5,603 nt of DNA from Deltaproteobacteria bacterium (GTDB lineage: Bacteria; JAUYMQ01), in NCBI GenBank assembly GCA_030698575.1, contig JAUYMQ010000533.1, positions 1-5,603 on the forward strand, in the 5' to 3' direction. Made by a program: the position numbers and the translations under genes. Below, piece after piece: positions 1-5,603 of the stretch (position 1 is the stretch's first letter; each line of letters opens with the position of its first letter). The notes below the pieces were generated by a model. That model was not told where the DNA came from. It ran no database searches and saw only the letters and a list, made by a program, of their open reading frames with translations.

Positions 1-2831
1 CCCATCAGCCCGACCTCAACTTCGAGAACCCGGCCGTGCATGAGGCCGTCTTCGACGCCCTCGACTTCTGGCTCGAAGCCGGCGTCGATGGCCTCCGGCT
101 CGACGCCATCCCCTACCTGTTCGAACGGGAAGGCACCATGAGCGAGAACCTTCCCGAGACCCATGACTTCCTGAAGGAGCTGCGGGCCCGGGTCGACGCC
201 AAGTACGAGGACCGGATGCTGCTCGCCGAGGCGAACCAGTGGCCGGAGGACGCGCGGGCCTACTTCGGCGACGGCGACGAATGCCACATGGCCTTCCACT
301 TTCCGCTCATGCCGCGAATCTTCATGGCCACGCGGATGGAGAGCCGATTCCCGATTGTCGAGATCCTGGCGCAGACCCCCGAGATCCCCGACAACTCGCA
401 GTGGGCGATCTTCCTACGCAACCACGACGAGCTGACGCTCGAGATGGTGACGGACGAGGAGCGCGACTACATGTACCGGGTCTACGCGAACGACCCGAAG
501 GCGCGCATCAACCTCGGCATTCGCCGCCGTCTGGCCCCGCTACTCAGCAACGACCGGCGGAAGATCGAGCTTCTGACCGCGCTGCTGCTCTCTCTTCCCG
601 GCACACCGGTCATCTATTACGGCGATGAGATCGGGATGGGCGACAACATCTACCTCGGTGATCGGAACGGCGTCAGGACGCCCATGCAGTGGAGCGTCGA
701 CCGCAACGCGGGCTTCTCGATGGCCAACCCGCAGAGCCTCTTTCTCCCCGTCATCATCGATCCGGAATATCACTACGAAGCGCTCAACGTCGAGGGGCAG
801 GAAAAGAACCTCAGCTCGCTTCTCTGGTGGACCCGGCGGGTGATCGCCACCCGAAAGCAGTACGCCGCTTTCGGGCAGGGGAAGATGGAGATCCTCCACC
901 CCGACAATCACAAGGTGCTTGCTTTCATCCGGCGGGACGGCGAGGAGATCATTCTGGTCGTGGCGAACCTTTCCCGCTTCTCGCAGTGCGTCCAGCTGGA
1001 CCTCTCGCCTTTCAACGGGATGGTGCCGGTCGAGCTGTTCGGCCACACCCACTTTCCGGGGATCAGCAAAGAGCTCTATCCGATCACCGTGGGCCCGCAC
1101 GGTTATTTCTGGTTCGTCCTGGAGCGCCCCAAGGCGGGGGCAGCCGCGCTTGCGGCCGCCGAATGGAAGCCTCCCGTCCTCGAAATCAGTGATCGATGGG
1201 CCGATCTCCTCGGCGAAGATGCGAAGGATCGGCTCGAGCGCGGCCTTCCGGGCTACCTGCGGACCTGCCGGTGGTTCGGGGCGAAGGCCAGGGTGGTTCG
1301 CAAGGCCGAGCTGATCGAGGTGATTCCGGTGTCGCCGGACACGCGCCTCACCTTCGTCCGCGTCTTGTTCGTCGACGGCGAGCCGGAGACGTACGTCCTG
1401 CCGCTTGCCCACGCGGCGGGAGAGGCGGCCGGCAGGATCCGGAAGGCGCACCCCCGCGCCGTGGTTGCGGAAACGCGATCCCCCAAGGGGAAGGGAGTTC
1501 TCTACGATGCCCTCTACAGCCCGGATTTCTGCAACCTCCTGCTCGACGTGATCGAGCGGCGCAGGCAGCTGCGCGGCGAGACCGGCCGGGTCACGGCGCG
1601 CCCCACCAAGGCGCTCCGGCAGATCATGGAAGGCGCCGACAAGACGCAGCCGCCCGCCCTCCTCGGCGCGGAGCAGAGCAACACCTCGGTGCTCTTCCAG
1701 GAGCGCGCGATACTGAAGATCTTCCGCCGGGTCGAGGCGGGGGTAAACCCCGATCTCGAGATCGGGCGTTTCCTGACCGAGAAGACCACTTTCACGAGCA
1801 TGCCGCCCGTGGGCGGTTTTCTGGAGTACGCGGCGGGGCGCGAAGCGCCCATGACCCTGGGCTTTGTCCAGGGGTACGTTCCGAACGAGGGAGATGCCTG
1901 GCGCTACACCCTCGACGAACTGGGGCGCTACTTCGAACGCGCCCTGGAGCACCGCTCCGATGAGCAGCGCCCCGACACCCGGGCGCGCGCCCTCCTGTCA
2001 CTCACCTCCGAGGAGGTTCCCCCGCTCGCGAACGAGATCATGGGAGGCTACCTGGACTCGGCCCGCCTGCTCGGGCAGCGCACGGCTGAATTGCACATTG
2101 CGCTGGCCTCGAGCACGAGCGTTCCCGATTTCGCCGTCGAGCCCATCACCCCTTTCTACCAGCGGTCGATGTATCAGACGATGCGCGGCCAGGCGTCACA
2201 GGCCTTCAGGCTACTCCGCAAGAGCGCTGCGGGCCTCAAGGACGGCATCCGCCAGCAGGGCGAGCTGCTCATCGAGCGCGAGACTGAGGTTCTCGATCGC
2301 TTCGAACGCGTGCTCGAAAAGCGAATCAACGCCTGCCGGACGCGCGTTCACGGCGACTACCACCTCGGGCAGGTGCTCTTCACGGGGAAGGATTTCGTCA
2401 TCATCGACTTCGAGGGCGAGCCGGCCCGGTCGCTCTCCGAACGCCGCTTGAAACGCTCGCCGCTCAGGGACGTGGCCGGCATGCTCCGCTCCTTCCACTA
2501 CGCCGCCTGCACCGCGCTCTTCCACCAGACCGAAGGCGCGGGCGCCGTCCGGGATCTCCTCGGCCCGCAGGCGCAGGCGGTTCTCCTTCCCTGGGCGCGC
2601 TTCTGGAACGACTGGGTCTGCACCGCCTATCTGAAAACCTATCTCGACACCGCTGACGGACATCCATTCCTTCCGAAAACGCGCGAGGGGCTCGGCGTGC
2701 TGCTCGACGCGTTCCTGCTCGAGAAAGCGGTCTACGAGCTCGGCTACGAGCTGAACAACCGCCCCGACTGGGTCTTCATCCCCATCCAGGGGATCCTCCA
2801 GATTCTCGACTCGCCTCTATCCGCCGAATGA
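1..2831 (+). CDS. treS: Trehalose synthase / maltokinase fusion (TreS-Mak), 5' partial
   Basis: Bifunctional cytosolic enzyme. The GH13 part interconverts maltose and trehalose; the C-terminal kinase part phosphorylates maltose with ATP to maltose-1-phosphate, the GlgE substrate. The frame is open to the left edge (first full codon at 3, reading HQPDLNFENPAV, a TreS hallmark), so the GTG at 36 is an internal Val and the real start lies upstream; from family lengths roughly 150-200 residues are missing. Numbering visible residues from nt 3: nucleophile D34 in GLRLDAIP (nt 102-104), acid/base E76 in LLAEANQW (228-230), transition-state stabiliser D142 in RNHDELT (426-428). GH13 plus its beta domain ends near nt 1130; an Ala-rich linker leads to the maltokinase domain from about nt 1195. 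There, a candidate ATP-site Lys572 lies in ILKIFRR (1716-1718), the catalytic loop is HGDYHLGQ (2349-2372), the metal-binding motif is DFEGEP (2406-2423), and SPLRDVAGML follows. All key motifs are intact and no frameshift is seen. The stop TGA overlaps the malQ start. The family assignment is very secure. Confidence 0.97.
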   Translation, partial: HQPDLNFENPAVHEAVFDALDFWLEAGVDGLRLDAIPYLFEREGTMSENLPETHDFLKELRARVDAKYEDRMLLAEANQWPEDARAYFGDGDECHMAFHFPLMPRIFMATRMESRFPIVEILAQTPEIPDNSQWAIFLRNHDELTLEMVTDEERDYMYRVYANDPKARINLGIRRRLAPLLSNDRRKIELLTALLLSLPGTPVIYYGDEIGMGDNIYLGDRNGVRTPMQWSVDRNAGFSMANPQSLFLPVIIDPEYHYEALNVEGQEKNLSSLLWWTRRVIATRKQYAAFGQGKMEILHPDNHKVLAFIRRDGEEIILVVANLSRFSQCVQLDLSPFNGMVPVELFGHTHFPGISKELYPITVGPHGYFWFVLERPKAGAAALAAAEWKPPVLEISDRWADLLGEDAKDRLERGLPGYLRTCRWFGAKARVVRKAELIEVIPVSPDTRLTFVRVLFVDGEPETYVLPLAHAAGEAAGRIRKAHPRAVVAETRSPKGKGVLYDALYSPDFCNLLLDVIERRRQLRGETGRVTARPTKALRQIMEGADKTQPPALLGAEQSNTSVLFQERAILKIFRRVEAGVNPDLEIGRFLTEKTTFTSMPPVGGFLEYAAGREAPMTLGFVQGYVPNEGDAWRYTLDELGRYFERALEHRSDEQRPDTRARALLSLTSEEVPPLANEIMGGYLDSARLLGQRTAELHIALASSTSVPDFAVEPITPFYQRSMYQTMRGQASQAFRLLRKSAAGLKDGIRQQGELLIERETEVLDRFERVLEKRINACRTRVHGDYHLGQVLFTGKDFVIIDFEGEPARSLSERRLKRSPLRDVAGMLRSFHYAACTALFHQTEGAGAVRDLLGPQAQAVLLPWARFWNDWVCTAYLKTYLDTADGHPFLPKTREGLGVLLDAFLLEKAVYELGYELNNRPDWVFIPIQGILQILDSPLSAE
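2828..2831 (+). promoter_or_regulatory. ATGA stop-start overlap, treS-mak / malQ
   Basis: The malQ ATG (2828-2830) shares bases with the treS-mak TGA (2829-2831). The 25 bases upstream (ctcgactcgcctctatccgc region) have no convincing Shine-Dalgarno motif, so malQ initiation probably depends on ribosomes finishing treS-mak (termination-reinitiation). The overlap is seen directly; the coupling is inferred. Confidence 0.75.
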
Positions 2832-4948
2832 AGCCTGCCGAACTGCGGACGCTGCGCGCGCTTGCCGCGCTACACGGCGTGGAGACGGAGTTCCGGGACG
2901 CCTTCGGCCACCGTCGCGCCGCCACGCCCCAGGCGCTGCTTGCCACGCTTCGCGCGCTCGGCGTGAACGTCGATCGCGCCCGCGACCTGGCTCCGGCGCT
3001 CGACTTGCGGCAGCGGGAGATCTGGAGCCGGGCCTGCGAGCCGGTGACGGTGGCCTGGGAAGGAGAGGCTGTGCGCGTCACGCTTCGCCTTCCGGAGGAG
3101 CGGGCGGGCGAGATTGTTTCGTGCCGTTTGCAGACGGAGGACGGGGAGAGCCGCTGCTGGCGCGCACTCCCGGGCGAAATGCCCGCTTCCCGCGCCGGGC
3201 GGGTCGACGGACGAAGATACGTGCAAAAGGAAATCGTGCTCCCCCGCCGGTTGCCGCGCGGCTACCACCGGCTGTCGCTCGAGACGGGGGGAAGGGAATT
3301 CGAGACGCTCCTGATCTCCGCCCCGGCCCGCGCCTTCGAGCCCCCGGCCCGGAATCAGCGGAGCTGGGGGGTGTTCCTTCCGCTCCACGCGCTCGGCTCC
3401 GCGCGAGGCTGGGGGAGCGGTGATTTCACCGATCTGGCCTCGCTCCTCCGCTGGACCGCCGCGCGGGGCGGGCGCCTGGTGGGAACCCTTCCGCTTCTCG
3501 CCGCCTTCCTCGACGAGCACTTCGAGCCGAGTCCGTACTCCCCGGCGAGCCGCCTGTTCTGGAACGAATTCTTCATCGATGTGGCGCGCGTGCCCGAGCT
3601 GCGTCGCTGTGCCGGCGCGCGGCGCCTCATCGGGAGCGGCGCTTTCCGGCGCGAGATCGATCGCCTGCGCGGGGGTGATCAGGTCGACTACCGGCGCGGC
3701 ATGGCGCAGAAGCGGCGTGTGCTGGAACTGCTCTGCCGGTCCTTCTTCGCGTCGGCCCCGGTCGCGCGGCGGCTCGAGTTCGAACGCTTTGTCGCGGCCC
3801 GGCCCGCGCTGCCCGACTACGCGCGCTTTCGCGCCGTGAACGAGCGGCGCCGGACGGCCTGGGAACGGTGGCCGCGCCGCCTCCGGGAAGGGGCGATTGT
3901 CGCGGGGGACTACGACCGGGCGGCGTACCGCTACCATCTCTACGCGCAGTGGATCGCCGACGCGCAGCTCGCCCGCGCGTCGCGGGCGGGGCGGGGGGCG
4001 GGGCTCTATCTCGATCTTCCCCTGGGCGCGAGCCGGCATGGCTACGACGTGTGGCGCGAGCGCGGTTCGTTCGCGCTCGGCGCGAGCACGGGCGCGCCGC
4101 CAGATCCGGTTTTCACCGGCGGGCAGGACTGGGGATTTCCGCCGCCGCACCCGGACGGAATACGCGAGGAGGGCTACCGTTACTTCATCGCCACGCTTCG
4201 CCACCATCTTGCGCGCGCTTCCGTGCTTCGCATCGATCACGTGATGGGCCTGCAAAGGCTTTTCTGGATCCCGAGCGGGCTCGACGCATCGCAGGGCGTC
4301 TACGTGCGTTACCGCGCGCAGGAGCTCTATGCCATACTCTGTCTCGAATCATGGCGCGCCGGCGCTGTCATCGCGGGGGAAAACCTGGGAACGGTGCCGC
4401 CGGAGGTGGACGAAATGATGGCGCGGTGCGGGGTGCAGCGCCTTCACGTGCTGCAGTACGACGTGGAAGGACACGCGCGCGGCCCCGGGCCGGTGCCGCG
4501 GGGGGCGGTGGCGAGCCTGAACACCCACGACATGCCGACCTTCGCAGCTTTCCTCTCGGGCGACGACATCGAGGATCGGGCATCCCTGGGCCTGCACGCG
4601 CCCGCCGGGGCGCGCAAGGAGCGCGCGCGGCGCGTCCGGATCGTCGGAGCGCTGAGGCGTTTTCTCGTCCGGCGGCGCCGGCTGGCGAAGGGGAAGGGGG
4701 GCGCCGCGTCCCTTCTCGACGCCTGCCTCGCGTTCCTCGCGGCGAGCCCGGCGCGCATCGTGCTGGTGAATCTCGAGGATCTCTGGGGCGAGCGGCGGCC
4801 CCAGAATGTTCCCGGCACCGGCCGGGAACGCCCGAACTGGCGGCGGAAGGCGGCGCTCACCTTCGAGTCTTTCAGCCGCTCGCCGCGCGTCGTCGAAACG
4901 CTCCGGCGGATTGCGGCGCTCCGGAGAAAGGGGGCGGGGGGACGATGA
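2828..4948 (+). CDS. malQ: 4-alpha-glucanotransferase (amylomaltase, GH77)
   Basis: Cytosolic disproportionating enzyme: it cuts an alpha-1,4-glucan and transfers the maltodextrinyl part to another glucan or to glucose. It has 706 residues, close to the long E. coli MalQ type and longer than the roughly 500-residue Thermus type. The extra length is an N-terminal beta-rich region (about residues 1-170) before the barrel, which opens at RSWGVFLPLHAL (179-190). Motifs seen: EPSPYSPASRLFWNE (233-247), nucleophile D470 in LRIDHVMG (nt 4235-4237), acid/base E518 in AGENLGT (4379-4381), stabiliser D568 in NTHDMPT (4529-4531), and the GH77 C-terminal signature QNVPGT..PNWRRK (659-674). The ATG at 2828 overlaps the treS-mak TGA and has no clear Shine-Dalgarno sequence, so translation is probably coupled. 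The N-terminal ELRTLRALAALHGVET resembles the usual MalQ start, which supports this choice. The protein is unusually Arg-rich and Lys-poor (about 108 Arg, 8 Lys by my count). The function call is firm; the exact acceptor preference is unknown. Confidence 0.97.
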   Translation: MKPAELRTLRALAALHGVETEFRDAFGHRRAATPQALLATLRALGVNVDRARDLAPALDLRQREIWSRACEPVTVAWEGEAVRVTLRLPEERAGEIVSCRLQTEDGESRCWRALPGEMPASRAGRVDGRRYVQKEIVLPRRLPRGYHRLSLETGGREFETLLISAPARAFEPPARNQRSWGVFLPLHALGSARGWGSGDFTDLASLLRWTAARGGRLVGTLPLLAAFLDEHFEPSPYSPASRLFWNEFFIDVARVPELRRCAGARRLIGSGAFRREIDRLRGGDQVDYRRGMAQKRRVLELLCRSFFASAPVARRLEFERFVAARPALPDYARFRAVNERRRTAWERWPRRLREGAIVAGDYDRAAYRYHLYAQWIADAQLARASRAGRGAGLYLDLPLGASRHGYDVWRERGSFALGASTGAPPDPVFTGGQDWGFPPPHPDGIREEGYRYFIATLRHHLARASVLRIDHVMGLQRLFWIPSGLDASQGVYVRYRAQELYAILCLESWRAGAVIAGENLGTVPPEVDEMMARCGVQRLHVLQYDVEGHARGPGPVPRGAVASLNTHDMPTFAAFLSGDDIEDRASLGLHAPAGARKERARRVRIVGALRRFLVRRRRLAKGKGGAASLLDACLAFLAASPARIVLVNLEDLWGERRPQNVPGTGRERPNWRRKAALTFESFSRSPRVVETLRRIAALRRKGAGGR
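4927..4941 (+). promoter_or_regulatory. Purine-rich, Shine-Dalgarno-like tract before glgB
   Basis: The run AAAGGGGGCGGGGGG ends three bases before the glgB ATG, with the AAAGGGGG part about ten bases away. It could pair with the 16S anti-SD in more than one register. It also encodes the Lys-Gly-Ala-Gly-Gly end of MalQ, so the G-richness may simply reflect Gly codons. Confidence 0.4.
4945..4948 (+). promoter_or_regulatory. ATGA stop-start overlap, malQ / glgB
   Basis: The glgB ATG (4945-4947) overlaps the malQ TGA (4946-4948), the same arrangement as at the previous junction. This points to one polycistronic message and coupled translation of all three genes. The overlap is seen directly; the coupling is inferred. 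Confidence 0.75.
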
Positions 4949-5550
4949 CAGCCAGGGGGACGAAAAAGCCGGCGCGCGGCGCTGCGGGGCCCCGCGCGAA
5001 GAAACCCGGCGCGAGGAAACCTGATGCGGCCGGCGCTCCGGCCGTTCAGGACGGTGGCCTTCTCACGAAGGACGATCTGTATCTTTTCAACGAGGGGAGC
5101 CACTGCCGCCTCTACGACAAGTTCGGCGCGCGGCCGATCACCCTCGACGGAAAGGCCGGGACGCAGTTCACCGTCTGGGCGCCGAACGCGCGCCAGGTGT
5201 CGGTGGTCGGGGACTGGAACGGCTGGAACCGTGAGAGCCACCCGCTCCGGGCCCGGGAGTTGTCCGGGATCTGGGAGGGGTTCGTTCCCGGCGTGGGAAA
5301 GGGGAGCATCTACAAGTACCACATCGTTTCGCGGCACAAGAATTTCCGGGTGGACAAGGCCGATCCCTTCGGCGTTCATCACGAGACGCCGCCGAAGACC
5401 GGGTCGATTGTCTGGGACACAGCCTATGACTGGGGCGACGCGGAGTGGATGGCGGGGCGGAAGTCGCGCCAGTCGCTCGACGCGCCCGTCGCGATCTACG
5501 AGATGCACCTGGAGTCGTGGCGGCGGGTGCCGGAGGAGGGGAACCGCTAG
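4945..5550 (+). CDS. glgB: 1,4-alpha-glucan branching enzyme, N-terminal part ended by in-frame TAG
   Basis: GlgB makes alpha-1,6 branches in glycogen by moving a cut alpha-1,4 chain. As written, the frame encodes only 201 residues, against roughly 630-750 for the family. Residues 1-35 are a basic, low-complexity Lys/Ala/Pro/Arg tail, probably disordered. Residues 39-62 (LLTKDDLYLFNEGSHCRLYD) are the start typical of the shorter GlgB class. Residues 63-160 form a CBM48 glucan-binding domain (FTVWAPNARQVSVVGDWNGWN, then GIWEGFVPG and YKYHI). Residues 181-201 (VAIYEMHLESWRRVPEEGNR) are the first beta strand of the GH13 barrel and the loop after it. No catalytic residue is reached. The ATG at 4945 overlaps the malQ TGA and has a purine-rich stretch upstream. 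The TAG replaces a residue inside a conserved segment, and GlgB-like sequence continues after it, so this is a disrupted or recoded glgB rather than a natural short protein. Gene identity is secure; whether it is functional is open. Confidence 0.9.
   Translation: MTARGTKKPARGAAGPRAKKPGARKPDAAGAPAVQDGGLLTKDDLYLFNEGSHCRLYDKFGARPITLDGKAGTQFTVWAPNARQVSVVGDWNGWNRESHPLRARELSGIWEGFVPGVGKGSIYKYHIVSRHKNFRVDKADPFGVHHETPPKTGSIVWDTAYDWGDAEWMAGRKSRQSLDAPVAIYEMHLESWRRVPEEGNR
5548..5550 (+). other. In-frame amber (TAG) codon inside glgB
   Basis: The TAG falls between EEGNR and LCYRE, where GlgB relatives carry a sense residue (often Ser, Phe, Pro or an aromatic, from memory). TCG (Ser), TGG (Trp) and TAC (Tyr) are each one base away. 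The other two stops in the window are TGA, and this TAG forms the CTAG tetramer, which is generally rare in bacterial genomes. The base after the stop is C. Confidence 0.9.
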
Positions 5551-5603
5551 CTCTGTTACCGCGAAATGGCGCCCCGGCTCGCCGAGTACATGAAGAAGAT
5601 GAA
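5551..5603 (+). pseudogene. glgB: glgB reading frame continuing after the TAG, 3' partial
   Basis: Read in the same frame as the upstream glgB codons, 17 full codons give LCYREMAPRLAEYMKKM, then two bases of an unfinished codon at the window edge. This matches the family pattern that follows EEGNR in short-form GlgB proteins (xLTYREMAxxLAxYVxxMGF, recalled from the family, not searched). There is no frame change across the TAG, so one substitution would restore a continuous gene. In-frame ATGs at 5566, 5590 and 5599 could in principle restart translation, but the product would lack CBM48 and the first barrel strand, so an active enzyme from a restart seems unlikely. The catalytic Asp/Glu/Asp residues would lie beyond the window. 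Confidence 0.8.

Follow-up and report, generated by a model that had tools for sequence, protein, structure and literature searches.

Genes at the locus and the in-frame TAG

The window analysed here is the whole of contig C557 (5603 bp) from a draft deltaproteobacterial metagenome bin, and its last base is a true contig end. The bin holds 4.13 Mb in 653 contigs and is estimated to be 91.6% complete and 4.6% contaminated. The genes found in the window (Table 1) are a treS-maltokinase fusion (treS-mak) that has lost its 5' end at the contig start, an intact malQ, and the 5' part of a glgB that runs off the contig. No stop codons interrupt the treS-mak and malQ frames. As in C557, glgB is adjoined by treS-mak or malQ in the GlgE-pathway or trehalose-maltose clusters of several relatives (for example L020, L025, L027, L035 and L183); unlike those clusters, C557 carries no glgE, and the glgE of the bin lies on another contig, C10, where it is followed by a different treS.

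Table 1. Features of contig C557 and the evidence for each.
Feature	Position	Strand	Evidence
treS-maltokinase fusion, 5' end lost at contig start, TGA stop	3..2831	+	TIGR02456, TIGR02457
malQ, 4-alpha-glucanotransferase (GH77), intact, TGA stop	2828..4948	+	TIGR00217, PF02446
glgB 5' part, 1,4-alpha-glucan branching enzyme, CBM48 and start of next domain	4945..5603	+	NF008967, TIGR01515, PF02922; contig end at 5603
In-frame TAG, glgB codon 202	5548..5550	+	stop absent from this column in 57/57 homologs
17 GlgB-like codons in frame after TAG	5551..5601	+	column comparison
TGT (Cys), codon 204, second anomaly within 9 bases	5554..5556	+	homolog column T/S/G/N

The glgB fragment was assigned by its profile matches to bacterial GlgB, a GH13 enzyme with a CBM48 domain (NF008967, E 1.7e-59; TIGR01515, E 3.3e-51), and the CBM48 domain (PF02922) lies inside the match. 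The N-terminal half of the frame matches over 180 residues; as the fragment has no more than 219 codons, the scores stay below the cut-offs set for full-length proteins. Compared with bacterial GlgB, the C557 gene differs in carrying one in-frame TAG and in having its C-terminal two thirds, including the catalytic GH13 residues, beyond the contig end.

Read from its ATG at 4945, the glgB frame runs ...WRRVPEEGNR-TAG-LCYREMAPRLAEYMKKM, with the TAG 53 bases before the contig end and the reading frame unchanged across it, which confirms the interruption as it had been described from the sequence. The statement that both flanks fit branching enzymes was likewise borne out. The codons following the TAG keep the branching-enzyme motif L-x-YRE-A---LAEY---M; all 17 align without gaps to most homologs and retain the conserved Y, R/E, A, L and Y. 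Owing to this combination of conserved residues and gapless alignment, the continuation of the gene after the TAG is not a matter of chance. Since the contig stops at 5603 and cuts glgB off there, these 17 are the only full codons past the TAG that can be assessed.

Comparison of the TAG column among GlgB homologs

We compared the glgB fragment column by column with 57 homologous loci. None of them has a stop in the column of codon 202. The column is occupied by P in 14 loci, F in 13, S in 10, W in 6, L in 4, Y in 3 and other residues elsewhere, so that it is itself variable, although the R and the L on its two sides are both conserved. The original prediction had placed the stop inside a conserved segment; this description holds for the two neighbours of the TAG and fails for the position of the stop itself. 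Conservation after the TAG is similar to that before it, with the exception of codon 204. Here C557 has TGT, encoding Cys, whereas T, S, G or N occupies this column in every homolog that has a residue there (56). If a well-conserved column is defined as one in which four residues cover 95% of the homologs, the fragment contains 88 such columns, and codon 204 is the only one where the C557 residue is unseen among the homologs. The TGT codon is rare in the window as a whole (2 of 1849 codons). The original prediction had no means of knowing that a contig ends so near the TAG, and it makes no mention of this TGT. Judged from these bases, the occurrence of TAG and TGT within nine bases near a contig end suggests local base corruption or fresh decay.

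The best glgB homologs fetched are 61-66% identical to the fragment, no homolog above 66% was found in the contig scan, and relatives of the contig at the DNA level come from distant genomes only. A separate search for glgB, covering 386 mostly distant genomes, gave a match in 138 of them. Few of these matches report an internal stop, in each case TGA or TAA; the position was checked for one, in L202, and falls at column 21, in the variable N-terminal region. In the closest glgB relative found (L183, 976-1100; 66% identical) the codon aligned with the TAG is intact. Its frame breaks later, at about residue 340, probably through a sequencing indel.

Sequence error and nonsense mutation as possible sources of the TAG

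A nonsense mutation, a base-calling or assembly error and translation of the TAG as an amino acid had been put forward as competing explanations. The first two still stand, and the third, which is treated below, is poorly supported. We favour an artefact as the explanation of the TAG, probably an error in the sequence where a draft metagenome contig ends with poor support. In that case the population would carry an ordinary, intact glgB within a treS-mak / malQ / glgB operon, and the original reads would not support the TAG. The window is an entire contig of a bin in 653 pieces, the remainder of glgB is missing past position 5603, and the TAG and the TGT, with its Cys unseen among homologs, lie together in a nine-base stretch close to that end. 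The absence of a stop from all 57 homologs and the intact treS-mak and malQ frames upstream also speak for an error. Against it, no general excess of outward-facing stops was seen at the contig ends of the bin: in a crude test on 77 contigs, the last 100 bases held 2 such stops, compared with 2-8 in each 100-base step of the kilobase next to them. An excess would be expected if contig ends were prone to error in general, and its absence keeps us from giving the artefact a higher rating.

The same two odd codons could alternatively be the mark of a gene just released from selection. If the nonsense mutation is real, whether fixed in the population or still segregating, it would inactivate this copy of glgB before the downstream sequence had decayed, and translation would stop after 201 codons, ahead of the catalytic domain. 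We regard such a mutation as a serious contender, if clearly the less probable of the two. It agrees well with a single stop, no frameshift and conserved flanking residues; on the other hand, most of the gene lies outside the contig, so that its decay cannot be assessed, a TAG so close to where the contig ends arouses suspicion, and the operon looks maintained in its other genes.

The physiology of the pathway bears on how a loss of GlgB would be borne. Maltose 1-phosphate, the substrate that GlgE polymerises in the GlgE route, is produced by TreS and maltokinase, and GlgB branches the product of the polymerisation (PMC4981310). In Mycobacterium smegmatis, deletion of glgB is tolerated and a long linear glucan is made, whereas in Mycobacterium tuberculosis loss of GlgB makes maltose 1-phosphate rise to toxic levels (PMC4981310). 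By analogy with these mycobacteria, a glgB-null organism would be possible, yet one would hardly expect it to persist without being noticed. A real nonsense allele would represent a natural loss of the branching enzyme in a bacterium that has enzymes leading from trehalose to maltose.

A second copy of glgB would make an inactivating mutation easier to accept, and the search for one that had been proposed gave an equivocal answer. A glgB 3' end was found at the edge of contig C34 of the same bin, which makes a second copy possible; it may equally be the far end of the C557 gene, or a contaminant. The middle of glgB was not found in the bin, and a gap of about 310 residues separates the 5' part on C557 from the 3' end on C34. 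The GC content of C34 (71.8%) is above that of each of the 55 contigs of comparable length that were sampled. A join of the two contigs was rejected. Comparison of their relatedness profiles (rho 0.25; median 0.39 for real pairs and 0.27 for mismatched ones) decided neither for nor against a common origin of the two ends. No GH57-type branching enzyme (PF09210) that might act as a back-up was found in the bin.

A join was also considered between C557 and C10 (L091), on which another treS starts directly after glgE. Positions 3267-3418 of C10 overlap positions 3-154 of the window. Over this overlap the DNA identity of the two treS sequences is no more than 71%; the genes are therefore not the same, and the join was discarded. 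The bin thus contains two different treS genes, either paralogs or a result of contamination.

TAG as a stop codon in the draft genome

Decoding of the TAG as an amino acid, by a suppressor tRNA, as pyrrolysine or through a change of the code, or its readthrough, would yield a full-length GlgB, and the frame is indeed open and conserved on either side of the codon. We analysed stop usage in a sample of 102 contigs (0.67 Mb), taking stop-to-stop frames that are coding-like and span 200 codons or more. Among the 304 frames obtained, 181 end in TGA, 93 in TAG and 30 in TAA; TAG, at about 31%, is thus a common terminator. The in-frame stretches past the stop have a median of 38 codons after TAG and 37 after TGA, and coding-like extensions follow 9.9% and 11% of these stops, respectively. 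The organism therefore treats TAG as an ordinary stop.

The other signs of recoding that the original prediction had asked to be looked for did not appear. No in-frame stop occurs within 42 matches to ABC-transporter domains, so that TAG does not recur inside these conserved genes, and none of the 42 tRNA hits in the 91.6% complete bin has a CUA anticodon. The best match to PylS scores 25.5 bits, far below the cut-off of 178, and weak PylS-like matches of such strength are present in most control genomes too. With about 9% of the estimated completeness lacking, and a bin that may be mixed, there is a small chance that a suppressor tRNA lies outside it. Neither RF1 nor RF2 was found in the bin, where the sole related item is a short protein (211 aa) with an RF-1 domain, encoded on C373. 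The missing RF1 might be taken to favour decoding; however, RF2 is equally missing although TGA serves as a stop, and the absence of RF1 is therefore attributed to incompleteness of the bin. Together with the homologs, none of which shares the stop, these data make decoding of TAG very improbable. Still harder to credit is a real TAG read through or suppressed at glgB alone, giving a regulated full-length branching enzyme.

In-frame stops in genome assemblies can mislead, for example via contamination, as screens for codon reassignment have cautioned (PMC8629427). Most likely, the TAG in glgB has small biological weight and does not reflect a new reading of the code. Lone in-frame stops near the ends of draft metagenome contigs should not count as recoding, and a missing RF1 is uninformative where RF2 is missing too.

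The tRNA survey also gave some minor observations. A weak hit on C479 (L087, 2901-2956) does not have a CUA anticodon: it is a 56-base truncated piece resembling tRNA-Lys (TTT), possibly the remnant of an integration site. Two further tRNA-like genes, L080 (C376, 3831-3918, minus strand) and L086 (C176, 8066-8153, plus strand), have a long variable arm and, by eye, a leucine-type body, and ARAGORN called their anticodons as CTC (Glu) and CAC (Val); they may be remnants, tRNAs of mobile elements or tRNAs with an unusual identity.
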